DNA from: a virus
Length of the DNA: 64,000 bases
Direction: 5' to 3' (one strand)
Virus record (IMG/VR): IMGVR_UViG_3300009158_000035
Location: 103,755 to 167,754 of that record
Shown: positions 6,641 through 42,586 of the stretch, in pieces
How the letters are laid out: each line of letters opens with the position of its first letter
Position numbering within the stretch: position 1 is the first letter of the stretch
The notes under the pieces: model-generated
Database searches by the model: none
The model's input: the letters and a program-made list of their open reading frames with translations, nothing else
What the model was told of the DNA's origin: nothing
Translations under genes and position numbers: made by a program

Positions 6641-8685
6641 TGGAAATCGCAAAATTAATACTCAAAAATTTCAGAACACACAAAAACGCGGCCTTTGATT
6701 TTCCTACAGGAGTAACAGGAATTATTGGAAAGAACGGATCAGGTAAAAGCAGTATTGTTGAGGCAGTAATCTTTCTTCTAACAGGTGAGGGGTACGGCAA
6801 AACAAAACAAGACATGCTGACAGTTGGACAGACTAGCGGCTATGTTATCGGTCACTTGATCATCGAAGGTAAAGAGGCTGTACTAGAAAGACACATCGAC
6901 ACGGCCAAGGTAAACTTCATATACGACGGAAAGACCTACAAGAAAAGTAGCGAGGTTAATGACATCTGGAATCAGCTATTTCAGATCGATAAGAATATCG
7001 TACAGAATGTGATCGTGAGTAACCAGGGCGAGATAGCCCTTCTCTTCAATGGGGACAGTGCCACGAAAGAGAAACTGTTTCAGAAAATCTTCATGGTGCC
7101 TAATACCACCAAGGTCAGAGATATTATCTGGAACAACTATATTAAGGACGCTCCTCCAGAATACCCTGTCAAAGACATGGTAGTTCTTCGAAGCGATATG
7201 CAGTGCGTGGAAGAACTAATCAGACTTAGTACAGAAGAGTCGAATGGTTTGATTGTAGATGAAGAGGTATATACTTCGCTAGTGTCTCGGCAGGCTTTTT
7301 TAAAGAGTGTTGAAGACGCTGAGAAGCTGACAGGCAATATTCGTGCAGCGTTGCCGATAGCTGAAAGTAAGCTAGTCGATGCGCAAGATGCATGTGCTAG
7401 GTACGATGAAAAACTAAAAGCTATCGATATTGCTACATACAGAAACACTCTCGCCACACTAAAGGCAAGCAAGCCTCTATATGATAAGAAGCTCGCATAT
7501 GCGCAGAAAAAAGCAGCGCTAGTTGTTCCGAAGCTAGTCTTTGGAGAAAAGGAAGAAGCCTTGCTTGCTGAGCTTGAGACAAAGGACCAAGGATACCGTG
7601 TTCTTGCTGACCTAAAAAACAAGCAGATAGCAGATATTGATCTTAAGATTAGAAACTATCATACAAATCTCGAGGGCGATACATGTCCAACCTGCGGATC
7701 AAGTATAGATCCAGAAAAGCTGATTGCTCATCTCACCAGTGAAAAACAACCATTGGTGAGCAGTCATCAGGAGCTGCTAGAAGAAATGGACCTCCTAAGG
7801 GTTCGGATAGGTAAGGGTAGGCAGGCAAAGCAAGAAAGCGATAGATACAAATCAGAGCTGGCTGAAATCGATGCATCCCTCGATGCAATTAAACATGTTC
7901 AATTCGATCAAAGCGAATATGACTTGTGGGCAGGTGTGGTAGACAAGTATACCGAACTTGAACTCAAGGCAAAAGCTGCAGCAGAAAATCAAAAGGCTGC
8001 TGAAAATGAGCTTCAGCGATTAAAGCTTACACTGGCTGGGCAACCCAGCTACGATAAAGACATAGCTATGTATCAGGCTGAAGTTGCAGAAATAAGAGAA
8101 AAAATCCAAGCCTTTCAAACTCTGCGCGAGAATAAGAAAAATGTCGAAGTAGAGATCGCTACTAAAAAGCAAGAACTTAAGATGTTGAAGCAGGACATCG
8201 AAGACAGTAACAAGTATATTGAGAAAAATAATAAGCGTAAGGAATATGTGCACGTACTAAAAAGCGTGTACGACCTGTTCCATACAGGAAGGTTCCCGAG
8301 AGCACTGATCCAGACCTATAGCAGCACTGTGACAGAGTATATGAACGATGTTCTTCAAAACTTCGAATTCCCGTACACTGCGCAGGTAAATGAAACGTTC
8401 GGCATTGATATCTACAATGAAGAAGGGCTGCTTCTGCCTAGTATATCAGGCGGTCAGCAGGTAATGGTCGGCTTTAGCTTACGTTTGGCGCTCCACAATA
8501 TGTTTGTAGGGGCATTCCCATTCATGGTTATTGACGAAGGTAGCTACGGTCTAAATAACGAAAACGCCAAGAAGTATTTTGAGATCATCAAAACTCTCGG
8601 TAAAAGCAGCAAATTCAAACAGGTCATCGTGATCGACCACCACAGTGAGTTGAGTGAATATGTGGACAACACAATCAACCTGTAG
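6640..8685 (+). CDS. Rad50/SbcC-type ATPase subunit (T4 gp46-like)
   Basis: A 681-residue SMC-like ATPase: Walker A GKNGSGKSS (30-38), Q loop near 130 (SNQGE), a long coiled coil interrupted by the zinc hook CPTC (~349-352), the ABC signature SISGGQQ (~600) and Walker B FPFMVIDEG (~624). Length and order match phage gp46/SbcC proteins. Together with the Mre11-like protein at 4453 it would tether and resect DNA ends. All essential motifs are present. Confidence 0.92.
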   Translation: MEIAKLILKNFRTHKNAAFDFPTGVTGIIGKNGSGKSSIVEAVIFLLTGEGYGKTKQDMLTVGQTSGYVIGHLIIEGKEAVLERHIDTAKVNFIYDGKTYKKSSEVNDIWNQLFQIDKNIVQNVIVSNQGEIALLFNGDSATKEKLFQKIFMVPNTTKVRDIIWNNYIKDAPPEYPVKDMVVLRSDMQCVEELIRLSTEESNGLIVDEEVYTSLVSRQAFLKSVEDAEKLTGNIRAALPIAESKLVDAQDACARYDEKLKAIDIATYRNTLATLKASKPLYDKKLAYAQKKAALVVPKLVFGEKEEALLAELETKDQGYRVLADLKNKQIADIDLKIRNYHTNLEGDTCPTCGSSIDPEKLIAHLTSEKQPLVSSHQELLEEMDLLRVRIGKGRQAKQESDRYKSELAEIDASLDAIKHVQFDQSEYDLWAGVVDKYTELELKAKAAAENQKAAENELQRLKLTLAGQPSYDKDIAMYQAEVAEIREKIQAFQTLRENKKNVEVEIATKKQELKMLKQDIEDSNKYIEKNNKRKEYVHVLKSVYDLFHTGRFPRALIQTYSSTVTEYMNDVLQNFEFPYTAQVNETFGIDIYNEEGLLLPSISGGQQVMVGFSLRLALHNMFVGAFPFMVIDEGSYGLNNENAKKYFEIIKTLGKSSKFKQVIVIDHHSELSEYVDNTINL

Positions 8686-8705
8686 CCTACACAAGCTAGG
8701 AAATT

Positions 8706-8873
8706 ATGACAAATAAGAACGCATTCATTGACAAGCTTATCTCCGGGGTGACAACCTATGTAAAAGATCTCGCCAAGCAAACCTTGGTCGAGGTGGTAGA
8801 TAAGCAGATTGAGAAAAATCGCCCAAAGCGGAAACCTCAGACACGCAAAAGGATACATCGAGCCAAGAAATGA
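8706..8873 (+). CDS. Small basic protein
   Basis: A 55-residue ORF filling the gap between the Rad50-like gene and the helicase; its TGA overlaps the helicase ATG (ATGA). The N-terminal half is amphipathic (NKNAFIDKLISGVTTYVK) and the C-terminal 20 residues are strongly basic (KRKPQTRKRIHRAKK), suggesting nucleic-acid binding. No family recognised. Confidence 0.6.
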   Translation: MTNKNAFIDKLISGVTTYVKDLAKQTLVEVVDKQIEKNRPKRKPQTRKRIHRAKK

Positions 8874-10333
8874 AAATACAGCTGACTAGATTCGATGGCG
8901 GCTTAAAGATCTCCCCATGTCCTATATATTTGCATCGCTTCCTTAAGTACCATCACAGGGAGATGAAGACGCAGAACTTCAAGCGAGAGACTGTATTCAC
9001 TGAGAAGTTGTTATATGCCTCAGATTCAGAAGGTGCAGCCTATACGCTTGCAGGCTTCTATCAGGATGTGACAAAACTGATACATAAGAATATGGATGTG
9101 GTGGAGATTATGGACTACCGCACACCGATGCCTGAACCTGACTGGACAGCGATCAAACAGATCAAGCTCAGAGACTATCAGATAGAGGCTGCCCTGGATC
9201 TGATATTCAAGGGCAAAGAAGATAGTGGGGTAATCAATGCGACTGGCGGGTTTGGTAAGACACATATTCAAGCCATAACCTATGCCGCATGGAACAAACT
9301 GAACACTATTCTAGCTATTCCTCTAAAGCAGGTGGTGCTGCAGACGTACGAGAAGTTCAAAAAATTCTTCCCGGACAAGCATATTGGTCTGGTTGGAGAT
9401 GGTAATCATGACGTAAGTAACGACATCACCATAACTACATTCAGGTCGTTAGGAAGCTGTGCCCTTGAGAAGTGTCAGATGCTCTTGGTTGACGAGATGC
9501 AGTCTGCTTCCCAAGAATCCTTTCAGAACTGCTTGAAGCAGATGCGTCCCTATAGGATGTTTGGTTACAGCGCCACCACAGAAGGATTGTTTAACAACTC
9601 AGACAAGCTATTGAAAGGGCTGTTCGGTGAAGACTTGATCTACTTCCCTTACGAGGAAGCGCAGGACGCTGGTGCGGTTGTGCCAGGCATGGTATATATG
9701 GTACGCATGCCTGAAAACATGATAGCTGAAAACTACACAAGCATCGAAAGCAAATTCAAGCATAACCTAAAGAAGTGCGAGAAGCGCAACGAGCTGATAG
9801 GTAGAACTTGCGCGCTAATACCTAAGGAATGGCAGACAATTGTGTTTATTGATCATGTGCAGGATCATCTCATACCCATGTTCAAGTATATGCCAACAGA
9901 CACGAGATATCTACACAGGGAAAGCAGCAAGAAGGCGGTCGGTGCTTTCGCGCTAAGTTCTAAGCAGCAGACTAAGACTATCCAAGAATTCAGCAATAAT
10001 GAGTTCCAGATACTTATAGCTAGTGATGCTTTCAGGGCAGGCGTAGACATCCCTAATTGTAGGGTTGTTGTGCAGGCAAGCGGAGGAACCAGCAAAGTGG
10101 AAGTATTGCAGGAAGCCTATAGAGGTAGCCGTATTCTGACACAAGAATATATGGACCTCTATAGTCTCCCTCCGAAAACACATTTCGTGCTTGTAGACTT
10201 CATGGATAACCATGATGCTATGCTCGAAGGTATGGCCAAGAAGCGTATAAAGTATTACGAAGAGCAGGGCTGGACAGTTAAAATCGTAGACAGTCCTCAA
10301 CAGATCGACTGGAACAACTACACGAAAAAATGA
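8870..10333 (+). CDS. Superfamily II DNA helicase (UvsW-like)
   Basis: A 487-residue helicase: Q-motif-like RDYQIEAAL (~102), motif I TGGFGKT (~124), motif Ia region, motif II VDEMQ (~208) in place of DEAH, motif III YSATTE (~236), and C-terminal motifs V-VI SDAFRAGVDIPNC and QEAYRGSRI. Phage UvsW-type helicases remodel replication forks and Holliday structures and unwind R-loops; this role is inferred from fold, size and position between Rad50-like and primase genes. The DEMQ variant of motif II keeps the metal-binding DE pair. Confidence 0.85.
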   Translation: MKIQLTRFDGGLKISPCPIYLHRFLKYHHREMKTQNFKRETVFTEKLLYASDSEGAAYTLAGFYQDVTKLIHKNMDVVEIMDYRTPMPEPDWTAIKQIKLRDYQIEAALDLIFKGKEDSGVINATGGFGKTHIQAITYAAWNKLNTILAIPLKQVVLQTYEKFKKFFPDKHIGLVGDGNHDVSNDITITTFRSLGSCALEKCQMLLVDEMQSASQESFQNCLKQMRPYRMFGYSATTEGLFNNSDKLLKGLFGEDLIYFPYEEAQDAGAVVPGMVYMVRMPENMIAENYTSIESKFKHNLKKCEKRNELIGRTCALIPKEWQTIVFIDHVQDHLIPMFKYMPTDTRYLHRESSKKAVGAFALSSKQQTKTIQEFSNNEFQILIASDAFRAGVDIPNCRVVVQASGGTSKVEVLQEAYRGSRILTQEYMDLYSLPPKTHFVLVDFMDNHDAMLEGMAKKRIKYYEEQGWTVKIVDSPQQIDWNNYTKK

Positions 10334-13932: not shown

Positions 13933-16626
13933 ATGGCTATTAAAGTAAAGATAGAAACACCCGTAGCTGAAGGCTGCTCACCAGAGCTTCTGATAGTGTT
14001 CAGTCATCCTAATAAGGACGACCTGGAAGCCAGAGCTTTTGGTAAGAAAGGCTTTGCTGCCGATGAAGTGCACAATGCACTGAATGCCGCAGGTATTCCG
14101 TTAGAAAATGTACATTTCACAGGCATGGTCAAGCACGGCATAGGTAGCAAGAGTAAGCCTTCTGCAGAAGACATTGAGGAATGGCGCGAGGAGCTGGATA
14201 GAGAGATTGAGGCAATTAAACCAAAACTCATTATTCCTCTAGGTGCAGAAGTCTTCAAGCGTATCATGCGCTCTAATATAAAGATGGGAGACTATATTGG
14301 AGAAGTTACCGACACCCCGTACGGCAAAGTGCTAGCTAACTATGCGCCTGGTATGCTGGTGGCGATGGACCCTACAAAACGTCCTGAGTTCAGAGAGAAC
14401 TTTCTCCTCGCAAAACGGGTACTGGATAACAACCTGAAATACGAGGAGTATAAGTATATCATTGTCGATGACCCTGCTGAAAATACTAGAATATTGCAGC
14501 AGTACATAGATAAGGGAATGCTTACTGTAGGTTATGACGCTGAGTGGTTCGGTAGCAAATTCACTGATGATGAAGTAATGTACGAGTTTCAGTACTGCTG
14601 TCAGAAAGATTTGGCGATAGTATTGAATATCAGCAAGGACGGAGTCACAGAGAATAGAGAGCTTCTAGACACCATGAAGCTTCTGCTAGAGCATCCTGAT
14701 GCAAAGAGACTGGGCTGGAATATCCGTGCTGACGACCTTAGGTTGCGACACAGAGGGTTCAAACTTCCTGACGAAACGCTGGCCTTCGACGGCATGAAGG
14801 CTGTAGCGTTTTTTGATAGTCGTCTGAGTAAAGGATTGGAGACAGGTATCAAGATGTTTACAGACTACCCTCCGTACTACACAGCGCTAAACAGGAAAAT
14901 GAAGGAACATAAACTAGCCAAGAGTGAGTTGGCCAAGATGAAGTTCCTGGAGCCCGAGATCTACTACTACTATTGCGCTGGTGACGCTGTGAGTCACCGA
15001 GAAGCGTGTCTTAGAATGATGCGTCAGTTCCCCGAACACCTGAAGTCCGTATACTACGATATTTATCTGCCGCTAACCCATTACTTCACAGACATGGAGT
15101 TGACAGGTATAGCTGTAGATAAAAATGTGCTGAACGATATCACAGAGAAGTACAGCGTCAAATACGAGGAGCTAAAGAAGACGCTGGTAGACTATCTGAA
15201 AGACAGGTTCAATGTTGAGGACTTTAATCCGAATAGTTCTGCACAGAAGAAACACCTGCTGTTTGAGGTCTTAAATGTGGAGCCTGCCTATTATACAAAG
15301 GCAGGTAAAAGTCCAAAAAGCAAGGCCTGGTACGACAACCAAAAGCCTCAAACACAACAGATGTATGCTCCAAGCACAAACAGCAAAAGTTTGGCCACTA
15401 TTAAGTTCCAGTTAGAGGAGCTACTAGATAAAGAGCCTGACTATGAGCCTGTTCAGGCAGTATATAAAGCTATTGAGTTGTTACTCAGTGTGGGTCGACT
15501 AGGGGTTTTCGCCACAAAGTTCCTCAGCAGGAAAGGTGTGGTATTAGACACTGATAGTGACCTTGACGAGGACATGGATGAGCCGTTAAAGCAGAGCTAT
15601 TGGGCGGCCATATGTAATGACGGTAAAGTACATGCAAGCTTCTTTGAATGCTTGAAGAACTTCAGGGCGAGTAGCAGTCCTAATGTACAAAATCCTGCCT
15701 CGAAAGTGTTGGCCTATATTCCAGATATTTTCATACCTGGATATGGAAAACTCAATAGTGACGAACAGAAAAAGCTGGAGCATAAACTACCGAAGAACAT
15801 CAGGAACATATTCTGCACAGGTAGTCCAGACTATCATTGGTGTGAGCTTGACGTCGCCGGGGCAGACTTGGCGATTATGGCGTTTCTGAGTCAGGATGAA
15901 GATTTCATCCATGACATTAGAGCAGGCAACTTCCATCAGACCAAGATGCGAGAATACTTTAACGATCACACTCTCACTAAAAAAGACGTGAGTAAGTATG
16001 TTATCGCGAAAAGTATTACTTTCAGGGTGTCCTATACTGCCGGTTTGAAGTTTGCCGCCATGCCTATCCAGGCTGATATCTATGCAGAGAACGGTCTACA
16101 TGTAGGTCTGGCTACACTAGAGTATGCATTGGAAACCTGGGGCAGATATAAGAGGTATATGCAATATCGTGATAGATGCACGAATGAAGTAAAAAACAAT
16201 CAGCGTATCACGAATGCTAGAGGGCTTGTATTGAACTATGAGTCCACTGATAACTTCGGTATCCTTGCAGGATGGATGAATGAGAGCCTGGCTTTCCCTG
16301 TAGCTAGTGAACTTGCCTGGTTCATGTGGGAGGCTTCGGTAAATCTGAAAAACGTCCTTAAAAAGGAAGGACTGTGGATGAAGTATATCTACCCGATAAA
16401 TACTGTACATGATGCAGGCTATTGGGCAGTACACAAAGACCTGTGCAAAGATAATTATATCCAGGAAGTCCTGAAGCATGTCTTCTGTCACCAGACAAAG
16501 CTGGCTACAGGCGATAACGTAGGCTGTGAGCTAGCTATTATGGATCGTTGGAAGGGTAAGGAAAAAGTGTTCGAAAAAGAAACTGCCTGGAACTTTGAAA
16601 AGAGTACCTGGGAGTGGAAAGCTTGA
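13933..16626 (+). CDS. Family A DNA polymerase with N-terminal UDG-like domain
   Basis: An 897-residue polymerase in three parts. Residues 1-165 resemble a uracil-DNA glycosylase fold (IVFSHPNKDD, NVHFTGMVKHG, PKLIIPLGAEVFKRI) but lack the iron-sulphur cysteines of family 4 enzymes, so glycosylase activity is doubtful. Residues 195-365 are a 3'-5' exonuclease with YDAEW (D202, E204), LGWNIRADD and YCAGD. The rest is the polymerase: motif A LDVAGADLAI, motif B KYVIAKSITFRVSY and motif C TVHDAGYW. Motif C lacks the common Glu after VHD. It is the likely replicative enzyme; a UDG-like N-terminus is known from SPO1-type phage polymerases. Confidence 0.9.
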   Translation: MAIKVKIETPVAEGCSPELLIVFSHPNKDDLEARAFGKKGFAADEVHNALNAAGIPLENVHFTGMVKHGIGSKSKPSAEDIEEWREELDREIEAIKPKLIIPLGAEVFKRIMRSNIKMGDYIGEVTDTPYGKVLANYAPGMLVAMDPTKRPEFRENFLLAKRVLDNNLKYEEYKYIIVDDPAENTRILQQYIDKGMLTVGYDAEWFGSKFTDDEVMYEFQYCCQKDLAIVLNISKDGVTENRELLDTMKLLLEHPDAKRLGWNIRADDLRLRHRGFKLPDETLAFDGMKAVAFFDSRLSKGLETGIKMFTDYPPYYTALNRKMKEHKLAKSELAKMKFLEPEIYYYYCAGDAVSHREACLRMMRQFPEHLKSVYYDIYLPLTHYFTDMELTGIAVDKNVLNDITEKYSVKYEELKKTLVDYLKDRFNVEDFNPNSSAQKKHLLFEVLNVEPAYYTKAGKSPKSKAWYDNQKPQTQQMYAPSTNSKSLATIKFQLEELLDKEPDYEPVQAVYKAIELLLSVGRLGVFATKFLSRKGVVLDTDSDLDEDMDEPLKQSYWAAICNDGKVHASFFECLKNFRASSSPNVQNPASKVLAYIPDIFIPGYGKLNSDEQKKLEHKLPKNIRNIFCTGSPDYHWCELDVAGADLAIMAFLSQDEDFIHDIRAGNFHQTKMREYFNDHTLTKKDVSKYVIAKSITFRVSYTAGLKFAAMPIQADIYAENGLHVGLATLEYALETWGRYKRYMQYRDRCTNEVKNNQRITNARGLVLNYESTDNFGILAGWMNESLAFPVASELAWFMWEASVNLKNVLKKEGLWMKYIYPINTVHDAGYWAVHKDLCKDNYIQEVLKHVFCHQTKLATGDNVGCELAIMDRWKGKEKVFEKETAWNFEKSTWEWKA

Positions 16627-16627
16627 T

Positions 16628-17350
16628 ATGAATAAATGTCCAAGCTTTAAGCTGACTAATAACAGCAAAGTCAGATTTTTCGACAAACATAACAATACGT
16701 TCAGTATATCTCAAGGTAGGGTAGAAGATGGTGGTACATGTGTACATGCCACGGAAGCCTGCCTGAAGGTATGCTATGATGCTACGCTGCGTAGGATATA
16801 TAAGCACTACAAAGCTAACGAGGACTATAACAAAGACCTTGTATGGGAGAAGCCCGTAGCGGAACAGATTGAAGTGATCAACAATAGTGTCAAAAAATGG
16901 TACTATGATACTGGGCATATACAGCCTTACTTCCGAATACATACAGGCGGAGAATTCTTTAACGAGAACTACGTCAACGCCTGGAAGACAGTCATCGATG
17001 CTTTTCAGCAGATACATTTTTGGGTATACACCCGAAGCCTTTTCGCCGTACCTATACTTGCAGGAACCAGAAACCTGACATTGTTATTGAGTTGCGACGA
17101 AGACAATAAAGATGAAGTACTTAAAACATACGACGTCTTTAAAACCCATCCAAACATATCTGTTGCATGGATGGGTGATAATGTCCCTCCGCTGTTTCCT
17201 AGGGATAGATCGTTACTGGTCTGTCCTGAAGTAACCGGAAAGACAAAAAATATAGACAAACAGGGAGCATGCTCAAGATGCCGAGCTTGCATTGACCGGC
17301 CTTTAAAATCCGGCAATATCCGCCACATACAGTTTCCTATTCATAGGTAA
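16628..17350 (+). CDS. GP88-family Cys-rich protein
   Basis: A 240-residue protein with an N-terminal Cys cluster GTCVHATEACLKVCYD, a middle stretch FRIHTGGEFFNENYVNAW and HFWVYTRS, and a C-terminal CSRCRACI. This agrees with the actinophage gene-product-88 family: three clustered Cys, an RxH..GEFF motif and further Cys. The Cys arrangement suggests an iron-sulphur cluster; a radical-SAM-like chemistry has been proposed for similar layouts but is not shown. ATG 16628 is chosen; upstream residues overlap the polymerase. Confidence 0.6.
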   Translation: MNKCPSFKLTNNSKVRFFDKHNNTFSISQGRVEDGGTCVHATEACLKVCYDATLRRIYKHYKANEDYNKDLVWEKPVAEQIEVINNSVKKWYYDTGHIQPYFRIHTGGEFFNENYVNAWKTVIDAFQQIHFWVYTRSLFAVPILAGTRNLTLLLSCDEDNKDEVLKTYDVFKTHPNISVAWMGDNVPPLFPRDRSLLVCPEVTGKTKNIDKQGACSRCRACIDRPLKSGNIRHIQFPIHR

Positions 17351-17445: not shown

Positions 17446-17802
17446 ATGACCACATCAAACAACTCCTCCATCGAAAACCTCAACGTCGCTCTTGAAAACC
17501 TGCAAGCTGTGACTGCAGCCATTGTTGCAGCTCCTGCGAAGTACAAGATTGAGATCGCTGATCGGACAGGTCACAGCACTGTCGCAGATCTGAGCCTTGA
17601 ACAGGCCACCGAGAACATTCTCGAGAATGCAGAAAAGAAAGCTCGTTGGGTGTTCATCAATGGTGAGAAAATTGAATTCACTGGAGGCAATTTCCGCAGC
17701 CAGGAAAACGTGCAGAAGCTGCAAGCCAAACTTCAGGCAATGCATGACCCCGCAGTCTTGCTGACAGGCATGCTCGTCGGCGGTCTGGGTATCGCTGAAT
17801 AA
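17446..17802 (+). CDS. Small protein with own promoter; possible beta-grasp fold
   Basis: A 118-residue protein, unrecognised by sequence. Predicted layout: helix (6-25), strand YKIEIADRTG (~32-41), strand HSTVADLS, helix LEQATENILENAEKKA, strand RWVFINGEKIEF (~67-78), then a helix and a hydrophobic end LLTGMLVGGLGIAE. Strand-strand-helix-strand with a late Gly-Gly is reminiscent of ubiquitin-like proteins, and the gene lies upstream of a JAMM protease and E1-type enzyme. That link is inference. Own promoter upstream, strong terminator downstream and an A/C-rich leader suggest high expression. ATG 17401 would start inside the promoter and is rejected. Confidence 0.55.
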   Translation: MTTSNNSSIENLNVALENLQAVTAAIVAAPAKYKIEIADRTGHSTVADLSLEQATENILENAEKKARWVFINGEKIEFTGGNFRSQENVQKLQAKLQAMHDPAVLLTGMLVGGLGIAE

Positions 17803-17886: not shown

Positions 17887-20019
17887 ATGAATATTAGATC
17901 CGATAAATTCAAAGACATTGTTAAAGAATATATAGCCTTATCAAAGTGCTTTCATAAAAGTGAGGTAAAACTAGAGTACACATACAATACAGGTTATGAG
18001 ATGGAGTACAGTACACAATACACAAGTCTAGAGTTTAGATCTGTGGCTAAGATGTACACCTTTTGTAAATTGCGCGCGATTCCTATTCATGGGAATCTAT
18101 TGACAAGCGCTGCAAGAGTACGCAACGAGATCGCTGAGTTGTGTACCGGGCTGACCAAGAATCATGTGTTGGTGGATATAAATCCAAACCACACCAAATC
18201 ATTCAAGACGCTGAAGCTTACGCCGTGTAAAACACCGTCTTCGTATCAGCCTAAACTAATTGAGGATACTCCTCTCGAAATTACGGAAGGAGACTACACG
18301 TACAGGTTTATAACTGCCAAGAAGCCTGGGTATGTAGGCAATTATATAATTTCTATCATCTGCAGAAATGATGATAAGATGTACGATTATCTTGATAAGG
18401 GATTTTATGTACATACCGTCGAGCAAAAGGTTGGGTTTAAAAAGACCTACCGACATATCGTGGCTAACGAATATGATGTAAACGTGGCACATATTTTCGC
18501 CATGTGTACAGTCGATCCAAAACTGGCCGATATGTTGCAACACGGGTGTTTCATAAACGTACACACCGCCGAAATTACACGACTCAGGATGGCTAAAAAA
18601 ATGAATGATGGTGGTAAAAAGAAAGAATCTTTTCCAACACACATTCATGACGCGATTGAAGAAGACTATAGACAGAATAGTACGCTGCAGGTTGTAGGGA
18701 AGTTGGTGGCTGGAGAGATCGAAAAGACTACAATCAATAACATTGTATTCACGAAGAGCTCTGCCTTATATGATCAGATCTCTATAGAGGCAGAAGACCT
18801 GCTCGACGTATTGTACAAAGAGCTTAACTTCAATGGTGAGTTTGATATCTACTCTATCACAGCCATATATGCGGCACACATGGAGAAAAGCCTGAACAAG
18901 CGCAGTCCTGAAACTGAAGCAACCAAAGATGCCGAGGATACACTTGAGGAAGAAGTACAGGCTGCAGGAGCAGACAGTCTTGTGCTGCCGGAGGTCAAGA
19001 TCAACGGCATTCCCATCAATGCCACGTTGACTGATACATTCCAGCGCCGTATCAACAAGGTGCGTATCAATAAAGACGAGCTGGCAAAAGCGATCAGCCG
19101 AGCAAGCTGCTATCACAACGCAGATGATTATAAGCTGTTCTTGAAGAGTATCAGCAGGATGAGTATCAAGTACCATGATATCATCTCTAACGGACTGCCT
19201 GTAAAGATTCATTCTACCATCAGTAGAGAAGAATATCATAAGGCCGAACCTACAGAGTCTGCACCAGCCCTCAAGCTGTGCATAGATCCAGTAGACAAAT
19301 ACTTCAAGCTGCAGGTAGACAAAGACCGTATGGTTCGAGTGAACCTAGGTAGACTGATCAAGAAAGTAGAGACCCTTAACAGAAAGACCAACAATAAGAG
19401 CTATCTCGAGACAGTACCAGGCTACTTCTATAAGCGTTCCAGTGTGCGTAACTATAACTGGTGTGCACAAGAACTGGTGGCAGTATTGATTGATTGCTGC
19501 ACCTTCCAGAAAACGCAAAAGAAGGAAGACGGTACGGATGAAACAGTCCCTGATGTGCTTATCAGTAACGAGGATATCCTCAAACTGATGGATATGGCTA
19601 ACGAGCAAAAACGAAAAATCCTCGAGCGTTCAAAAGAGTTCCTGGCTACTGCCGTAAAACTTACTGACGCTAAGTTGATAGAGTTTTTGGGCGAGTGTGC
19701 ATATCACGTCAAGGGTACACTCAGAGAGTATGCGGTAGTTATCAAAAATGCTAAAGTGTACGACTATGCTACAAAGCAATATCGCTGCATTGTAAACGAC
19801 AGGCATTATGCAGGCGCAGGTTATGACGATATTGCTGCAAGGCTGCTGGCGTTGAAGAACGATAGTACCACGCAAGCGCATATCAATACACTCAAGGGAG
19901 CAGCGCAACCCGGAGCCGAGAATGTACACAATGACTATGTACCCGAACGCGATGTGACTGACGGACTGGTAGAAGTCATTAACAAAATATATACAAACAA
20001 AGTAGAAAATAATGCGTAA
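17887..20019 (+). CDS. Large hypothetical protein
   Basis: Unrecognised 710-residue protein, first gene of the operon that contains the exonuclease-like, JAMM and E1-type genes and possibly the recombinase. Residues 1-240 look mixed alpha/beta; 330-370 are acidic and probably flexible (EDTLEEEVQAAGADS); 390-700 contain many basic helices (RRINKVRINKDELAKAISRA, KRKILERSKEFL). No Walker, metal-binding or nuclease motif was found. A DNA-binding or scaffolding role is possible but unsupported. Confidence 0.7.
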   Translation: MNIRSDKFKDIVKEYIALSKCFHKSEVKLEYTYNTGYEMEYSTQYTSLEFRSVAKMYTFCKLRAIPIHGNLLTSAARVRNEIAELCTGLTKNHVLVDINPNHTKSFKTLKLTPCKTPSSYQPKLIEDTPLEITEGDYTYRFITAKKPGYVGNYIISIICRNDDKMYDYLDKGFYVHTVEQKVGFKKTYRHIVANEYDVNVAHIFAMCTVDPKLADMLQHGCFINVHTAEITRLRMAKKMNDGGKKKESFPTHIHDAIEEDYRQNSTLQVVGKLVAGEIEKTTINNIVFTKSSALYDQISIEAEDLLDVLYKELNFNGEFDIYSITAIYAAHMEKSLNKRSPETEATKDAEDTLEEEVQAAGADSLVLPEVKINGIPINATLTDTFQRRINKVRINKDELAKAISRASCYHNADDYKLFLKSISRMSIKYHDIISNGLPVKIHSTISREEYHKAEPTESAPALKLCIDPVDKYFKLQVDKDRMVRVNLGRLIKKVETLNRKTNNKSYLETVPGYFYKRSSVRNYNWCAQELVAVLIDCCTFQKTQKKEDGTDETVPDVLISNEDILKLMDMANEQKRKILERSKEFLATAVKLTDAKLIEFLGECAYHVKGTLREYAVVIKNAKVYDYATKQYRCIVNDRHYAGAGYDDIAARLLALKNDSTTQAHINTLKGAAQPGAENVHNDYVPERDVTDGLVEVINKIYTNKVENNA

Positions 20020-20638
20020 ACAATACATCCTGCATATAGAGACTGCTCCTTTACCTATGGAGCAGCTGATAACTGCCGCCCCTACATTCAGGGCGGCAGC
20101 GAACATAAAGGATCCTAAAAAGATCGAAGAAGATATCGAAAAGAGAAAAAATAAATACTTCGAAGAAGCAGCATACAATGCAGCTACTGCGAAGATTTGT
20201 GCACTAGCCTGGATGGATATATCGGACATGAAGGTGCAGTCTGTTAACTCAGAGTTTGAGGAAGACCTGCTGCCTGAGTTGTTTGATATGCTTACAAAGC
20301 CTGAATATGCACATACATATACGTTTAGAGGGCTCAAGTTTGTATATCCATTCATCTGTCGCAGAGCCTTGACACTAGGTATCAACTTCTTCGATGTGTT
20401 CTTTGGGGAAAAAGGCCATCGGCTGCATTTTGATATTGCCCAAATATGGGCATGCGGCAGCTCTAGCCATCCTGAGTCACTTGAAGAAATTACTAAAGTG
20501 TTGAGTATCAATTATATGGATAATCCTCAGCCGTACTATAAGTTACGTGCAGCAGACGCACACAACGCTACAAACCATGCAGGAGAGCAGCTAACTAGCA
20601 CGATCAATGCAATCGACGCAATTAGAAGGCGGTTTTAA
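20012..20638 (+). CDS. Degenerate DnaQ/PolB-type exonuclease-like protein
   Basis: A 208-residue protein that follows the layout of PolB-like 3'-5' exonucleases: LHIETAPLP at 6-14 aligns with the usual DIET..P motif, TFRGLKFVYPFICRRA (~97) with the FNG..FD.P..R.R motif, and HFDIAQIW (~143) with the third motif. The first motif has His for the catalytic Asp and the second Val for Asp, so two metal ligands are missing. It is probably not an active nuclease and may bind DNA or a protein partner. Lies directly before the JAMM gene. Confidence 0.6.
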   Translation: MRKQYILHIETAPLPMEQLITAAPTFRAAANIKDPKKIEEDIEKRKNKYFEEAAYNAATAKICALAWMDISDMKVQSVNSEFEEDLLPELFDMLTKPEYAHTYTFRGLKFVYPFICRRALTLGINFFDVFFGEKGHRLHFDIAQIWACGSSSHPESLEEITKVLSINYMDNPQPYYKLRAADAHNATNHAGEQLTSTINAIDAIRRRF

Positions 20639-20642: not shown

Positions 20643-21062
20643 ATGAATGCATATCTAATGGAGACCATGCTAGAAGCGGCGGATAGCTGTACCGACCCTG
20701 TTGAAGAGCAGGGCGGTATAATCTTATCCAAAAACAACGAGTACTGCTTCGTAAAAGTCAAAAACATTCATGCAGGTACTAGTGTAGCTGCAGGGCTGTA
20801 TGAGACTGATCAGCAAGAATTGCGAGAGCATGTATTCTCAAAGATGGGTGAGGGGTGGAAGTTCCATGCGAGCTTCCATACCCATCCTCAATGGTCGCCT
20901 GTTCCAAGTAGCCTAGATCTGGAGAAACTGTTCCAGGGCTTCAAGTACAATGTAATATTCGCACCCAAGCCGGCCACATTCTGCTACGCTGAGTGGGTTG
21001 AAGACAGGTGCGTCATGCAATATATCCCTAAGAAAACACTACAATCACTACTTAAATCATAA
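20643..21062 (+). CDS. JAMM/MPN-domain metalloprotease (JAB-like)
   Basis: A 139-residue single-domain protein with a complete JAMM motif: a Glu in VEEQGG (E21/E22), HTHP at 79-82, seven residues to Ser 89 and Asp 92. These bind the catalytic zinc in deubiquitinase-type isopeptidases and bacterial JAB proteases. ATG 20643 is used because residues encoded before it lie in the previous gene and the domain begins here. The next gene, four bases on, is an E1/ThiF enzyme, so the pair probably acts on the same ubiquitin-like or sulphur-carrier-like substrate. It is not fused to NlpC as in lambda-type tail proteins. Confidence 0.85.
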   Translation: MNAYLMETMLEAADSCTDPVEEQGGIILSKNNEYCFVKVKNIHAGTSVAAGLYETDQQELREHVFSKMGEGWKFHASFHTHPQWSPVPSSLDLEKLFQGFKYNVIFAPKPATFCYAEWVEDRCVMQYIPKKTLQSLLKS

Positions 21063-21066
21063 ACAC

Positions 21067-21660
21067 ATGTTCAAAAAAATTGGTATTGCTGGAGCGGGAG
21101 GTATCGGATCGAACCTTCTCGCAATATTCTTCGATTATGGCTTCAACCGCAAGCAGTTCGACTATGCTAACCTTGAGGTAGACATCTATGATGACGATAC
21201 GGTGGACCTAAAAAATCTACTGCATCAGAATTTCAAGCTTGAGGATGTGGGCCGCTACAAGGTAAGTGTATTAGAGGAGAAGTACGTGGTCAACGGCATC
21301 AAGAAACGCATGGCAGCGAAGGACTTTAAAAACTACGACATGATCTTTAGTTGTGTCGATAGTATGCCCTTCCGTAAGTCGCTCTACGACTATGGCTGGG
21401 AAAAAGGTAAAGATAAGCTGTTCTGGGTTGACGGGCGATGCACGAGCCGTCAGGGTGCACTATTCAACAGCGACCTACCCAAGGAGCAGCTTCAACCGTA
21501 CGTAGACAGTAGTCAGGAAGAAGGAGGTTGCTTACTAGCTTACGAGAAAGAACAAAACATCAGTCATACCCTGCCCACAATAGTTGCAGGCATGATGGTG
21601 CAGGCCTTTCTTAATAAGCTACGAGGGCAGCAAACCTTCAAGTCAGTATTCATGGTATAG
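21067..21660 (+). CDS. E1/ThiF/MoeB-type adenylyltransferase
   Basis: A 197-residue Rossmann protein: nucleotide loop GAGGIGSN (9-16), then VDIYDDDTVDLKNLLHQNF (38-56), equivalent to the D.D.V...NL.RQ signature, FSCVDSMPFRK (94-104) and WVDGRCTSRQGAL (120-132). These are the ATP-binding and acidic residues used to adenylate a C-terminal glycine. Cys 125 and Cys 155 (EEGGCLL) are candidates for a thioester Cys; the usual zinc CxxC pairs are absent. Compact form, without a fused E2 domain. Its partner is presumably the adjacent JAMM protein. Confidence 0.85.
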   Translation: MFKKIGIAGAGGIGSNLLAIFFDYGFNRKQFDYANLEVDIYDDDTVDLKNLLHQNFKLEDVGRYKVSVLEEKYVVNGIKKRMAAKDFKNYDMIFSCVDSMPFRKSLYDYGWEKGKDKLFWVDGRCTSRQGALFNSDLPKEQLQPYVDSSQEEGGCLLAYEKEQNISHTLPTIVAGMMVQAFLNKLRGQQTFKSVFMV

Positions 21661-21711: not shown

Positions 21712-22761
21712 ATGGCAATCATCAAACCATCCCTTAGATTCGAAGGCTCTGAACTCAACCTTGGTGCAGCTTCTTCCCCATACATCAAAGAAGGCGTACG
21801 AAAAGCAACATTCAACAAAACAACCAACCAGGAGGGCGCTTACCTGTATTTCCTGCCTGCATACAAAGCAGACGATAGCGGCAACGGTGTATGGTTCAAA
21901 AAGATCAACATCCGCGACAACTTCGGCGCGAACTTCAAAGAAAAATACTATGTAGCGAACAGGGCACAAGACCCTGCAGAGTATTTCGCGAACAACTTCA
22001 GGATTCTTTATCCTGACGACGCTCGTGTTACTGATGTAGAGAGCAACGGCAAGAAGTTCAAAAAATACCCCCTCTGTGGGCGTATTGCTGAGCGCGTAGT
22101 CTACAATGTAGCTTTTGCGCAAAACCTAGCTACAGGTGCCCATGTACTAGATCTGCCGCTCCGTAACGGTGCAGACGGATTGATGAGCTGGCTTGACGGC
22201 AAGGACATCAACGGCAATCCTCGTCAACCTATCAACGACCATGAACGCTGCGTGCCGGTGTTTGTAAAGTTGAAGGAGAATTCTGCGAATCCGTGGATGA
22301 TTCAAATCGAGAACAATCAGGCAGTGCAACTACCACTCCAGCTGGCCGACAGCGACTATCTCTATAACCTGGATGATATCTTTGTTCCCAAGAGCAAGGA
22401 AGAAATCCTGGCCAAGCTGAGGGAGATGTATGCGCCAGATGTGTTCGACGATTGCATGAATGGTTTCCCTGGACTGACTAGAAATAGTGTACAGGGAGCT
22501 AGCTTCGCCGCAGATAGGACGCCTGCTAGGGAAGTTCAACAAGTAGTCTCTGTGGCGCCAGCTAGACAGGAAATCGCTAAGCCAGTAATGGCTGCTGCTC
22601 CTGTACCTGTTGCAGCGATCGATATCCCTAAGATAAATATCTCGGCTCCGATTGCGGCTGTGAATCCTCCAGCCGCTGCGGATCTGAATTCACTACCAAA
22701 AAACCCTATGTCTGGGCTGCTGAGTCGTGAAGAAGCTCAGCGTTTCATGGCACAGGACTAA
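21712..22761 (+). CDS. Hypothetical protein, candidate ssDNA-binding protein
   Basis: A 349-residue protein. Residues 1-240 look like a beta-rich globular domain with many aromatic and basic residues (YLYFLPAYK, GVWFKKINIRDNFG, KFKKYPLCGRIAERV); 260-330 are a Pro/Ala-rich linker and the last 20 residues form a short charged helix (LLSREEAQRFMAQD). Core domain, flexible linker and conserved tail, directly upstream of the recombinase and with a leader suggesting high expression, would suit a gp32-like single-strand binding protein. No sequence family was recognised. Confidence 0.5.
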   Translation: MAIIKPSLRFEGSELNLGAASSPYIKEGVRKATFNKTTNQEGAYLYFLPAYKADDSGNGVWFKKINIRDNFGANFKEKYYVANRAQDPAEYFANNFRILYPDDARVTDVESNGKKFKKYPLCGRIAERVVYNVAFAQNLATGAHVLDLPLRNGADGLMSWLDGKDINGNPRQPINDHERCVPVFVKLKENSANPWMIQIENNQAVQLPLQLADSDYLYNLDDIFVPKSKEEILAKLREMYAPDVFDDCMNGFPGLTRNSVQGASFAADRTPAREVQQVVSVAPARQEIAKPVMAAAPVPVAAIDIPKINISAPIAAVNPPAAADLNSLPKNPMSGLLSREEAQRFMAQD

Positions 22762-22767: not shown

Positions 22768-23985
22768 ATGAACATAGACAGCCTATTAGGTGCAGTTAAA
22801 AAAAGCTTCGGAAAAACATTTAAAAACGAAGCAGTTAATCTAGATCTCAATACTGTAGACAAGGAGCTTCCTCCTACAGGCATTGTGCTGGATAACCCCC
22901 TAATGGAGTATGCATTTGACCGTAGGTTTATGGCCTACGGTCGGTGCTACCTCGTTTACGGGAAGAAGGGTTGCAGCAAGACTACCTTGCTGTTCGACCT
23001 TGCTAAAATATTCCAGAAAGCTGGAGGGTATATGTTCTGGATCGAGACCGAGAGTGCGCCTGACTTCCGCTATATGGAACTACAGGGAGTCGACCCAACC
23101 CGCGTCATCTATCACAATCCTAGAGGCATCGAAGAGGCCTTGACATTGTGTAAGATGATCATCGAGAACTATAGCAAGCACAGCGACGGGAAAACTCCTG
23201 TACTGATTGCTCTAGACTCTATTGCTGGCGGTGCCACAGACTACGAGCGCGATCAGGATGTGATCGGGCAGGCTAAACCTGGCGAACACGCAAAACTGAT
23301 GGCTGCTTTCTACAGACATATCATTCCGTACCTAGAGTGCGAGAATATGGTGTTTGTGGCTACCAACCAGCTACGCGAGCAGATTGGCGGTATGACAGGC
23401 TTCGGCGCTGAGAAACCTGAGGCTTTGCTGGGTGGCGAAGCTCAGAGGTTCAACAGCACATACCAGTTCAAGGTTGCCCGTATCAAGGATAACCTTGAGG
23501 AAGACCATATGGGTGTAAAGCGTAAGGCTGGTTCCACCCATACTTTAACGGTAAAGCGTAATAAACTTGGCCGTGAGGGTAACAGTCAGAAGATCGAGTT
23601 CGACATCCATATCAAGGGAGGTATCGACTGGTACAGCCCACTGATTAGAAAACTCGGTGAAGAGTATCCGGCAATCGTAGGTAAAACAGGTGGCTGGTAC
23701 ACATGGAAGGTTCCTAATATGGAATTCTCCCTCGAGACTGAGGATGCCCCTATTGTAGGCGTTATTGATACAGAGAAAAAGTTCAGGGAGCAAGACCTTG
23801 CACTGTTGATCAAGAGTAGTCCACAAGCCAGAGAAAAGATCAGGGAAGCTTTCGGTATCCCTGATATGCCTACAGCTGAAGTAGAAGCTGCAATCGCCGA
23901 AACAAACAAGGTTAGAAGAAAGAAAAAATCCGACCTTGAGATTGAAGTAGAAAACGTAAGAGGAATCGATTACTTAAATGAGTAG
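22768..23985 (+). CDS. UvsX/RecA-type recombinase
   Basis: A 405-residue RecA-fold protein: Walker A GKKGCSKTT (65-73), in which Ser replaces the usual Gly before Lys as in some UvsX proteins, FWIETES (~90, catalytic Glu region), Walker B VLIALDSIAGG (~147) and TNQLREQIGG (~194), the DNA-binding L1/L2 area. The C-terminal 60 residues are charged. It should form filaments on ssDNA and drive strand exchange with the Mre11/Rad50-like and UvsW-like proteins. Confidence 0.88.
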   Translation: MNIDSLLGAVKKSFGKTFKNEAVNLDLNTVDKELPPTGIVLDNPLMEYAFDRRFMAYGRCYLVYGKKGCSKTTLLFDLAKIFQKAGGYMFWIETESAPDFRYMELQGVDPTRVIYHNPRGIEEALTLCKMIIENYSKHSDGKTPVLIALDSIAGGATDYERDQDVIGQAKPGEHAKLMAAFYRHIIPYLECENMVFVATNQLREQIGGMTGFGAEKPEALLGGEAQRFNSTYQFKVARIKDNLEEDHMGVKRKAGSTHTLTVKRNKLGREGNSQKIEFDIHIKGGIDWYSPLIRKLGEEYPAIVGKTGGWYTWKVPNMEFSLETEDAPIVGVIDTEKKFREQDLALLIKSSPQAREKIREAFGIPDMPTAEVEAAIAETNKVRRKKKSDLEIEVENVRGIDYLNE

Positions 23986-37425: not shown

Positions 37426-37747
37426 TGACGCAGATCATATCGGTGAGCCTGACGAAATGATCACCACCACAATATCTAGAGTAGATGATTGGATTGTTGA
37501 AAACTATCCAGATACAGAGATACTATTACCTGTAGGGTTTAGCGAAGCTTTCATTGGAGTCGCTACACAATTCGACAGAGTAATGGCTGTATATGACAGG
37601 CAGAAATGTATAGAGATATTGATGCGAGATATGAGTGAGGAAGATGCTCACGAATATTTCGAGTTTAACGTAATCGGAGCATATGTCGGGGAGAACACCC
37701 CAGCATTTATAGAACTAATAGACAATGGACACAATACTAGTAATTAG
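37418..37747 (+). CDS. Hypothetical protein
   Basis: A 109-residue protein from ATG 37418 (overlaps the preceding stop by eight bases). Contains PVGFSEAFIGVATQFDRVMAV and DEDAHEYFEFN-like EEDAHEYFEFNVIGAYVGE. This resembles a widespread phage family of about 100 residues with FDR.MA.YD...C......D...E.A.EYF..NV..AYVGE, function unknown. Confidence 0.6.
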   Translation: MNNDADHIGEPDEMITTTISRVDDWIVENYPDTEILLPVGFSEAFIGVATQFDRVMAVYDRQKCIEILMRDMSEEDAHEYFEFNVIGAYVGENTPAFIELIDNGHNTSN

Positions 37748-37946
37748 CGGCAAGGTAGTCTTGAAAAACTCTAAGATCGATTGGCCTGATCTTAACTTCC
37801 CTGGATCGGGTCAAACTATTCTTAGAACATTGCACGACATAGACTATAAGTTTTTAAAGATTCAATTAGATGGGTTTGACGGTCCTTGGTTCACTCCGTT
37901 AACATTCCCTAAAGGAGTAGCTTTCTACAAGCAAATCAAAGAGTAG
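37725..37946 (+). CDS. Hypothetical protein
   Basis: Unrecognised 73-residue protein overlapping the previous gene by 23 bases. Short strands and a C-terminal PLTFPKGVAFYKQIKE. Confidence 0.5.
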   Translation: MDTILVISGKVVLKNSKIDWPDLNFPGSGQTILRTLHDIDYKFLKIQLDGFDGPWFTPLTFPKGVAFYKQIKE

Positions 37947-37947
37947 T

Positions 37948-38106
37948 ATGAGTAAAGACGACCAAAGCGGAGCATCTCTAGTCATACTGGTGCTTACAAT
38001 GCTTATTGTTGTAATGTGCTATGTTAACATTCAAAACAAAAACCACCGAAACAATAAAATTGAGACGGTATCTCTCGAGCTAGCTACCGAACCGACAACA
38101 AAATAA
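37948..38106 (+). CDS. Small single-span membrane protein
   Basis: A 52-residue ORF one base after its neighbour: short hydrophilic start, hydrophobic span VILVLTMLIVVMCYV (about 11-27), then a polar Asn/Lys-rich tail. Typical of tiny inner-membrane phage proteins. Confidence 0.6.
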   Translation: MSKDDQSGASLVILVLTMLIVVMCYVNIQNKNHRNNKIETVSLELATEPTTK

Positions 38107-38110
38107 CCTC

Positions 38111-38464
38111 ATGAGTTTTAAAAAAGACATGCACGCTAAAGACGAGCTGCTTGGAGTGCTACAAAGGAACGGTAGGCTGGATAAGGTTAGATGTGCCCAG
38201 ATCCGCCACTACAGGAACTACCAGCACGAGACAGAGATTGTGTTGAAGTGCGGCTACACAGCAGACGACTGGAGCCAGTTTTTGGATAAACTCGACTTCT
38301 ACTATCACAGTGGTTATGGGTCACAGGAACTGTTCGGTACCGTGTGGCTCAGCAATGAAAGCTGGTTAGAGCGGGCCGAATATGATGGTAGTGAGTGGTG
38401 GGAATATCGCAGCTATCCAGCTATCCCTGAAGAATGTGCGGCTGTAACGCCAGAAGCTAGCTAA
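38111..38464 (+). CDS. Hypothetical protein
   Basis: Unrecognised 117-residue protein with YTADDWSQFLDKLDFYYHSG and GTVWLSNESWLERAEYDGSE, a pattern often met in phage proteins annotated as hypothetical (GTVW...WL.R.EYDGSEWW). One base separates it from the next gene. Confidence 0.6.
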   Translation: MSFKKDMHAKDELLGVLQRNGRLDKVRCAQIRHYRNYQHETEIVLKCGYTADDWSQFLDKLDFYYHSGYGSQELFGTVWLSNESWLERAEYDGSEWWEYRSYPAIPEECAAVTPEAS

Positions 38465-38465
38465 T

Positions 38466-38732
38466 ATGTGTATACGGGTGTACAACACAGATACCAAAGA
38501 GAGTACAGACAACCCTAGAGAGCTGGCAGAGATGCTGGGACTAGCAGTGAAACAGTTGCCTGTAGACAACAACTACGGGCAACTCATCCCTGAGAGCTGT
38601 CTGTGTCAGGTAGATGTAAAGAAAGCCTGCGAGCTAGCAGGATACAACTATACAGAGAACCAGGACTTCGAGCCTGTAATCTCGAAAAAAACCGCAGAAG
38701 AAATAGTAAAAAACATAACAAGTTACAGATAA
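38466..38732 (+). CDS. Hypothetical protein
   Basis: Unrecognised 88-residue protein with a helix (PRELAEMLGLAVKQL) and the end FEPVISKKTAEEIVKNI. A possible short DNA-binding helix pair, but not diagnostic. Confidence 0.5.
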   Translation: MCIRVYNTDTKESTDNPRELAEMLGLAVKQLPVDNNYGQLIPESCLCQVDVKKACELAGYNYTENQDFEPVISKKTAEEIVKNITSYR

Positions 38733-38736
38733 CAAA

Positions 38737-38886
38737 ATGGAAGAAAAAGAAAAATGCTGTTCACTGAAATTATTTTCCACAGATATGCCAGCACTTCGAT
38801 ATAGTCTGCTTTTTGTTGGAGCATTCATAGCCGCGTTTGCGGGTACAGTGTCGGCAATATTATTATTTGGAGTAATAGCAAAATGA
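38737..38886 (+). CDS. Small single-span membrane protein
   Basis: A 49-residue ORF below usual length cut-offs: charged start MEEKEKCC, then a hydrophobic span LLFVGAFIAAFAGTVSAILL (about 24-43). Its stop overlaps the next ATG (ATGA). Confidence 0.6.
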   Translation: MEEKEKCCSLKLFSTDMPALRYSLLFVGAFIAAFAGTVSAILLFGVIAK

Positions 38887-39497
38887 AATACACAGCAACA
38901 ATATCAGGACTAGGAGGAGCACTCAGTGTTGGAGCAGTATCAGAGAAAGTATTCAAATACTTTCAAACCCACAGTCTCATGGATTATATGAACCATGATG
39001 AGGAAGCTCCAAAAGATATCGCAGATGAGCTGGATAGGGACAATCCACCGGACGATATTCTATATATGTTCGGGCCTTTCTTCTCTCAAGGTTCTTACAT
39101 CTCAGTGAAAGATGAAGCTGACGAAGAAATATTTGTCGGAGCACTCGTCGAGGATGGAGAAGATGGAGAGTATGAGCTGCCTGGAACATATGAAATGCGC
39201 CTACGTTTGAGTGACCTGGCTGACGACCATCCGTTCATATTTCTAGGACTAGATATTCAAAGAGGAATATATAACGATTATCGGTTCGAGACTGAAAACT
39301 TCGATCCTGAGAAATTCCTGATTGATTTCGACCACATCACAGATGGTATGGACAACGAGATCTATTTCGTCACAGGTGTAAGATATGATGGAGAATTGCT
39401 CACACCTATTGAAGAGCATACCACTCGAGGGAAGAGCGCAGAATATCGGTTATATGATTTGGAGAACAACGAACTAATCTCAACAGACGACGAATAG
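38883..39497 (+). CDS. Hypothetical acidic protein
   Basis: Unrecognised 204-residue acidic protein. Two similar strands-and-acid stretches (DEEIFVGALVEDGEDGEYEL and LFIDFDHITDGM-like region near 140) suggest a beta-rich fold. First residues ATISGLGGALSVG are Gly-rich but not a nucleotide loop. Confidence 0.6.
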   Translation: MKYTATISGLGGALSVGAVSEKVFKYFQTHSLMDYMNHDEEAPKDIADELDRDNPPDDILYMFGPFFSQGSYISVKDEADEEIFVGALVEDGEDGEYELPGTYEMRLRLSDLADDHPFIFLGLDIQRGIYNDYRFETENFDPEKFLIDFDHITDGMDNEIYFVTGVRYDGELLTPIEEHTTRGKSAEYRLYDLENNELISTDDE

Positions 39498-39498
39498 T

Positions 39499-39696
39499 AT
39501 GTACGTAATTGAAGGACAGAGTGGAGTAAACATGTTCAGGAGCTGCACTATTGGAAGTGGTGCTACAGAAGAAGCGGCATGGCTGGATGCCTTGGGACCC
39601 AGACCCTGGAGCGATCATGCTAAGAAGATGAAGAAGAAATATACTTGTCGAAAACTCGACGAAGATGAAGAGGTTCGATATAGCGACGAGCCTTAA
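39499..39696 (+). CDS. Hypothetical protein
   Basis: Unrecognised 65-residue protein with EEAAWLDALGPRPWSDHAKK and a basic then acidic tail (KKYTCRKLDEDEE). Last gene before a strong terminator. Confidence 0.55.
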   Translation: MYVIEGQSGVNMFRSCTIGSGATEEAAWLDALGPRPWSDHAKKMKKKYTCRKLDEDEEVRYSDEP

Positions 39697-39707
39697 TATC
39701 TAAAACC

Positions 39708-39750
39708 TGAGGGGTAGTTAAAACCAAACTTTAACTACCCCTCATTTTTT
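39708..39750 (+). terminator. Strong intrinsic terminator
   Basis: Fifteen-base perfect stem TGAGGGGTAGTTAAA / TTTAACTACCCCTCA, seven-base loop and TTTTTT. It closes the 36.8-39.7 kb cluster. Confidence 0.9.
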
Positions 39751-39757
39751 AATCACT

Positions 39758-39976
39758 ATGGACGTAATTAACGAAGAAGCTCACATCATTCAGGTAAAGT
39801 CTAAGCGGAAGAACAGCGATTGGAGAGACTATATGATTTTCAATAATGCTGAAAAGTCGGTTAAACAATATGAGGATATGGTAGCCAGACCTCACCATCA
39901 TATGCTTGATAGGCGAGACGCACGATTGATCTATAGAGTAACCAAAGAAGTAGGCATCTACTCAACAATTAAATAA
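39758..39976 (+). CDS. Hypothetical protein
   Basis: Unrecognised 72-residue protein: SDWRDYMIFNNAEKSVKQYE then DARLIYRVTKEV. The layout (W.D strand, helix, R.IYRVTK strand) loosely resembles the product of 41365. Confidence 0.55.
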   Translation: MDVINEEAHIIQVKSKRKNSDWRDYMIFNNAEKSVKQYEDMVARPHHHMLDRRDARLIYRVTKEVGIYSTIK

Positions 39977-39980
39977 TAGT

Positions 39981-40148
39981 ATGGAAACAGAAAGTTTAAC
40001 ACGTATAATTTGTGTCGCCTTCGCACTGTTCGCTATGTATTTTGTCGGTTGGATAAGTGGTGCAGCTCAAATGCAAAGGGAAGCGGTTAAAGCTAATGTG
40101 GCCTACTGGGAAAGCGGGTCAGTAACATTTCACTGGATTACTGAATAA
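39981..40148 (+). CDS. Small membrane protein with REAVKA motif
   Basis: A 55-residue ORF: span IICVAFALFAMYFVGWISG (8-26), then REAVKANVAYWESGSVTFHW. The second part parallels RDAVKAGVAYYTS in the product at 42587. This membrane-span plus R.A.KAG.A.Y unit is common in small phage proteins; function unknown. Confidence 0.65.
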   Translation: METESLTRIICVAFALFAMYFVGWISGAAQMQREAVKANVAYWESGSVTFHWITE

Positions 40149-40149
40149 T

Positions 40150-42251: not shown

Positions 42252-42584
42252 ATGGCAACACGTTCACTTATATCAATCGAAAACCCTGACGGTACCTATG
42301 ACGCAGTATATTGCCATTTCGATGGCTATCCTGAAGGAGTAGGAAGGAAGTTGGAAGATCACTATACTGATCCTGAAAAGATCAGGGCACTGATCAGCAG
42401 AGGCAGCATGACTATGCTTGCCCCTGAAATTGACAAATGTGAGTTCTATACTAAGCGTGGAGAAGAGCTCAAGAACTGGTGCGGTATGCCTCATGGGAAG
42501 CTCCAGAAGGCTGCCGACAATAACTGGTGCGAGTATATCTACAGATTTGTAGATGGAAAATGGACACACGAGGATATTGAATAA
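42252..42584 (+). CDS. Conserved phage protein (MATRS family)
   Basis: A 110-residue protein starting MATRSLISIENPDGTYDAVY with CHFDGYPEGVGRKLEDHY and a LISRGSMTML stretch. The MATRS.I..E..DG....Y.H.DGYP..VG..L..HY pattern is widespread in phages and some bacteria; function unknown. C-terminus contains the usual EYIY.F..G.W strand. Confidence 0.7.
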   Translation: MATRSLISIENPDGTYDAVYCHFDGYPEGVGRKLEDHYTDPEKIRALISRGSMTMLAPEIDKCEFYTKRGEELKNWCGMPHGKLQKAADNNWCEYIYRFVDGKWTHEDIE

Positions 42585-42586
42585 CT

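Follow-up and report, generated by a model that had tools for sequence, protein, structure and literature searches.

A group of large, uncultured bacterial viruses probably runs its own protein-tagging pathway during infection, since a ubiquitin-like protein (Ubl) with a Gly-Gly motif, an activating enzyme and a JAMM protease are encoded together within their replication block. The genes lie in the window analysed here, a stretch of 64,000 nucleotides at the very end of an IMG/VR virus record of 167,754 bases. The explanation considered best, with somewhat better than even confidence, is a phage-borne ubiquitin-like conjugation pathway composed of the Ubl, an E1 enzyme, a 710-residue protein (P710) and the JAMM protease. 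The relevant features are the following:

13933..16626, + strand: family A (PolA-type) DNA polymerase with a uracil-DNA-glycosylase-like domain; context, kept upstream across loci
16595-17350: conserved 251-aa gene, phrog_1392 (2.6e-34; function unknown); in most loci it directly precedes the Ubl
17446..17802, + strand: Ubl precursor; an alternative in-frame ATG lies upstream at 17401
17887..20019, + strand: P710, 710 aa, conserved; occupies the module's E2 slot
20012..20638, + strand: exonuclease-like protein, 208 aa, optional member; weak DNA_pol_B_exo1 match (0.092)
20643..21062, + strand: JAMM/JAB metallopeptidase, 139 aa; HTHP at 20877-20888, Ser89 and Asp92
21067..21660, + strand: E1/ThiF-type adenylating enzyme, 197 aa; candidate catalytic Cys155 at 21529-21531
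21712..22761, + strand: conserved 349-aa protein after the E1; no family match
22768..23985, + strand: UvsX/RecA-like recombinase; context; phrog_97 (2.5e-34), Pfam RecA (4.4e-21)

The first-pass annotation had placed the JAMM and E1 genes between P710 and the UvsX-like recombinase; this is correct as to order, but the pair adjoins neither, because the 208-aa and the 349-aa genes intervene. The 349-aa protein is possibly a single-strand DNA-binding protein, and the same record also encodes a DnaB-like helicase, a primase, and SbcC. Among the matches listed, the RecA of the record is less than 30% identical to those of GenBank phages, and no close cultured relative of the virus was found. Matches to multi-subunit RNA polymerase PHROGs are split over two ORFs of the record (record positions 37636-40665 and 42253-44103, equivalent to L129:2637-5666 and 7254-9104).

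The ubiquitin-like partner, absent from the first-pass annotation but proposed there as an object of search, was found at 17446-17802. Its Gly-Gly codons occupy positions 17779-17784 and are followed by a five-residue tail, LGIAE; this partner lends strong support to the earlier claim that the system acts on a C-terminal glycine. The Gly-Gly comes after a conserved core, at one aligned position in all 30 Ubl homologues, whose identity falls to about 21% and four of which are very divergent. It is followed by no residue in six of them, by one to nine in 22, and by 75 or 157 in the other two (L036 and L034, respectively). In every homologue it is thus either exposed or followed by a presumably removable extension. 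The alignment of 10 divergent Ubls retains five fully invariant columns, two of which are the Gly-Gly. In the near-identical phages L009, L010, and L011, the second Gly codon varies silently only, and the amino-acid changes of the Ubl are confined to one Glu/Gln exchange and to the residue directly after the Gly-Gly (Leu, His, or Arg). At the level of sequence, the Gly-Gly is demonstrably under selection. The domains fused after the Gly-Gly in the two longest homologues (L034:4644-5375, 157 residues; L036:4937-5422, 75 residues) resemble ubiquitin fusion precursors; no copy of them was found in the genome of the window.

In the AlphaFold2 model of the Ubl (pLDDT about 80 in residues 50-120), the elements follow the order b-b-a-b-b-a-b (b1 48-54, b2 57-64, a1 66-80, b3 83-86, b4 89-92, a2 101-113, b5 118-122), and a flexible tail after b5 bears the Gly-Gly at 127-128, about five residues beyond the last strand. 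Strand order and Gly-Gly spacing are the same in ubiquitin. The top Foldseek matches were PB1, Ubl, SUMO, and related folds, including the bacterial Ubl-deubiquitinase complex 8tyx, all individually weak (TM-scores about 0.3-0.5). Because the best E-value is 0.013, the predicted beta-grasp fold is likely rather than proven. A sequence profile of the Ubl retrieved no known Ubl from the PDB, and the family shows no sequence similarity to the Ubls compared.

The activating enzyme gave a Pfam ThiF match of 4.2e-18, above the curated cut-off, and no match to any Pfam dehydrogenase family, which upholds the original reading of this gene as ThiF/E1 rather than as an NAD-binding dehydrogenase. All 30 E1s have GxGG, NLx[HY]Q, the Cys of [GS]C[LQ]L and the adenylation Asp, the last within VD[SN] or, in a single protein, PDG. 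Of the residues diagnostic of the E1/ThiF superfamily, the nucleotide motif (GAGG), the catalytic Lys and Asp (K65, D98) and the crossover-loop Cys (C155) are conserved, and the ribose Asp (D42/D44) is found in most. Cys155 aligns with the conserved PSC position of the ThiF of PRTRC, the plasmid ParB-related, ThiF-related cassette, while Cys125 is not universal. The Arg of NLxRQ assists adenylation in known E1s. In all 30 phage E1s it is replaced by His or Tyr, a difference from PRTRC ThiF. PRTRC ThiF is matched by the E1 profile significantly over its length (5.9e-25), beside crAss-like ThiF (5.8e-17) and, in the PDB, UBA3, the NEDD8 E1 (6e-5). The best NCBIfam match was PRTRC_ThiF (3.8e-12; 46 bits against a cut-off of 144.75), and a tblastn search of plasmids returned PRTRC ThiF exclusively among the matches listed. 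The enzyme is compact, with neither a rhodanese nor an E2 domain. In locus L013 about 1.17 kb (L013:6826-8000) separates codons 46 and 47 of the E1 gene, within the conserved DDDTV/KNLLHQN motif; the ORF of this insert has two LAGLIDADG-like motifs, an Rfam search of the insert gave no match, and it is probably a mobile intron.

The JAMM protein, whose gene lies four bases ahead of the E1 gene as originally described, matches Pfam Prok-JAB (4.5e-8, above the curated cut-off). The complete zinc motif already attributed to it is borne out by its relatives: 14 of them share H79, H81, S89, D92, and the upstream Glu without exception, and the JAMM/MPN+ signature HxHPx(6-7)SxxD is complete in 30 of 30 JAMM proteins. 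Of the six phages whose Ubl already ends at Gly-Gly, five have the gene as well (L012, L032, L035, L086, and L094). Since a maturation-only enzyme would be dispensable in such phages, its presence suggests a further function like that of an isopeptidase, these five cases being also compatible with other reasons.

P710 is found in every viral locus reaching its site. Nine divergent members share 22 invariant residues, including Cys408 (19108-19110) and Cys634 (19786-19788). No E2 family was detectable, so that the search for an E2-like protein suggested by the first-pass annotation came back empty, apart from these invariant cysteines in a protein without E2 homology. Given that P710 matched no E2 family in Pfam or by profile, and that Foldseek against the PDB and a viral library gave nothing below E 0.13, a transferase role for it is put forward here as a proposal. 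Several other identities were considered for P710. Profile comparisons were negative both with the PRTRC B and F proteins and with the crAss-like E2, and these assignments were rejected. A weak match to DUF7737 (window 19633-19806, E 1.4e-4), which spans Cys634, is below the cut-off and is taken as a lead rather than as membership. The strand-Cys-helix order of the C-terminus recalls an E2 but has no structural match, and an E2 is not claimed on this ground.

A scan of viral contigs with the E1, Ubl, P710, and JAMM revealed the same gene block in about 30 distinct viral loci. In most of them the order is Ubl, P710, the exonuclease-like gene, JAMM, E1, the 349-aa protein and RecA, with JAMM and E1 strictly syntenic; L002, L005, and L006 are among several loci that lack the exonuclease-like gene but are complete in other respects. 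Comparison of these loci establishes the gene set and its order, with the motifs intact. Two divergent loci depart from the usual arrangement. L094 reads P710, Ubl, JAMM, E1, while L092 reads P710, Ubl, E1 and has no detectable JAMM in its 63.7-kb record, which is possibly a fragment. The minimal set of L092 occupies L092:4735-7556, and its Ubl, of 69 aa, terminates exactly at the Gly-Gly. No relatives were detected by scanning 84,980 bacterial and archaeal genomes of GTDB with the E1 pattern. Among cultured phages, the Ubl, P710, and JAMM had no match and the E1 reached distant ThiF proteins only. A literature search of open-licence papers found no description of the module, and ThiF, ubiquitin, and JAB are not mentioned in the account of crAss-like phages by Yutin (2021).

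Among named systems PRTRC is the closest, as judged from the E1 profile match. It occurs, for example, in Cupriavidus necator pBB2, with the order Ubl (C), E2-like (B), JAMM (A), E1 (ThiF), and P710 thus takes the place of B (plus F). The comparison with PRTRC advised by the first-pass annotation gave a profile match for the E1, which stays below the PRTRC_ThiF cut-off, and none for its partners: the Ubl was rejected as a C homologue after a negative profile comparison, the profiles of B, C, and F had no match in the record, and no ParB, E, or F gene was seen beside the phage module (B, C, and F being those searched by profile). The modules of crAss-like phages (Kahnovirus, Kolpuevirus) and Flavobacterium Fipvunavirus are phage-borne and adjoin replication and uracil-DNA-glycosylase genes, as here, and their order is also the same, with a Ubl-like protein (KSG), an E2-like protein (HSH..C) in the position of P710, JAMM, and E1. 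The Ubl-like and E2-like proteins of those phages are candidates assigned from motifs, without family matches. The window Ubl, P710, and JAMM show no similarity to these counterparts beyond the motif level, and homology of the two Ubls was likewise rejected.

The Bil system (BilABCD) also combines a JAMM-trimmed Ubl precursor with an E1 (PMC11354881), but it is a host antiphage defence in which the Ubl domain is doubled in BilA, the E1 (BilD) is large and has two domains, and a genuine E2 bearing a CEHH motif (BilB) takes part. None of these features is seen here, where the E1 has 197 aa and no protein matches an E2 family. CBASS Cap2/Cap3 likewise pairs an E1 that works on a C-terminal Gly with a JAMM isopeptidase (PMC10097602). 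In Cap2 the E1 is fused to an E2 and targets a cGAS-like enzyme, whereas the phage E1 has no E2 domain; no CD-NTase was noticed near the locus. In the tails of lambda and T1, a phage Ubl domain (TAPI, gpI) is paired with a JAB peptidase (TAPK, JAB+NlpC) (PMC1779556). That pair belongs to tail assembly, carries an NlpC fusion and has no reported E1, in contrast to the stand-alone JAMM, the E1 and the replication setting found here; the distinction drawn earlier from lambda-type and Cap2-type arrangements therefore stands. The module would work like the Ubl-E1-JAMM systems of PRTRC, Bil, and CBASS Cap2/Cap3, but it is not filed as a member of any because defining parts of each were not found. 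New in it are the core-replication setting in a phage, a Ubl family that resembles none of the compared ones in sequence, and the presence of P710 at the place of the E2.

We infer the steps of the pathway as follows. JAMM would remove the short tail of the Ubl and expose the Gly-Gly, and the E1 would then adenylate the glycine and probably load the Ubl on Cys155. P710 would receive it, either as an unusual transferase (through Cys634 or Cys408) or as a dedicated substrate. Proteins probably belonging to the replication and recombination block would be tagged reversibly, JAMM taking the tag off. Weighing against this reading are the failure to detect an E2 family, the want of a convincing homology or fold match for P710, the His or Tyr in place of the NLxRQ Arg, and the weakness of the single fold matches of the Ubl. 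A more far-reaching version, in which P710 is a new family replacing E2/E3 in a self-contained viral cascade that controls phage replication or recombination proteins, is offered tentatively.

The first-pass annotation had left conjugation and sulphur transfer side by side. In the latter, the trimmed Ubl would be adenylated and converted to a thiocarboxylate, from which a small molecule, tRNA, or nucleotide would receive sulphur; JAMM would serve only to mature the carrier. Precedents of carrier-maturing JAMM proteins are CysO/Mec and siderophore operons. The E1 is of the compact ThiF type and lacks a Ub-fold domain, which agrees with this, as does the failure to find an E2, and sulphur-related operons containing JAB do exist, Gly-Gly Ubls with JAMM being among them (operon types 4a-4d, PMC1779556). 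On the other hand, E1 systems paired with JAB have been argued to follow a mechanism unlike that of the thiamine or MoCo pathways (Iyer et al., PMC1779556). The nearest E1 relatives here are those of PRTRC and crAss-like phages rather than ThiF proper, P710 has no known role as a sulphur acceptor, and the E1 bears no rhodanese domain. The 167.7-kb record has no match to rhodanese, class-V aminotransferase/cysteine desulphurase, or PAPS reductase, which the host could supply. The JAMM kept in five of the six phages that need no trimming favours reversible conjugation. Sulphur transfer is considered rather unlikely and conjugation moderately probable.

Conjugation might also be restricted to P710, with the Ubl attached to or cycling on this protein as a self-modifying switch similar to ATG12-ATG5. 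The set kept in the most divergent phages is P710, Ubl, and E1, as in L092, and the two invariant Cys of P710 come without E2 homology. By sequence such a switch would look the same as a P710 transferase, but the JAMM of the other loci suggests turnover and no lysine or acceptor site was identified; we regard it as improbable. Least credible is a counter-defence role, in which the module would disturb host CBASS (Cap2/Cap3) or Bil conjugation, for instance by JAMM stripping host conjugates. Cap3 and BilC are indeed JAMM proteins, and a C-terminal glycine is used by the host systems (PMC10097602, PMC11354881). Against this, the phage has its own Ubl and E1 within a fixed block of replication genes in 30 loci, and PADLOC matches are at the superfamily level only (weak E1-E2 superfamily). 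Counter-defence genes are usually sporadic and accessory.

Work on bacterial Ubl systems has dealt mainly with plasmid cassettes and antiviral defence and, for phages, with tail-assembly pairs. If the proposed conjugation pathway is true, phages use Ubl tagging for their own biology, and the Ubl-E1-JAMM set would be a minimal pathway for studying the origin of E2-type transfer. A further suggestion is that modules of this sort include the genes annotated as ThiF in crAss-like and Flavobacterium phages. In L059:5855-9570, L060:5316-9564, and L061:5532-9543 (crAss-like cr85_1, Kolpuevirus; Flavobacterium FpV4), a Ubl-like protein with KSG[AG], an E2-like protein with HSH..C[LI]G, JAMM, and ThiF follow one another, and their annotations go no further than thiamine biosynthesis, metalloprotease, or hypothetical protein.
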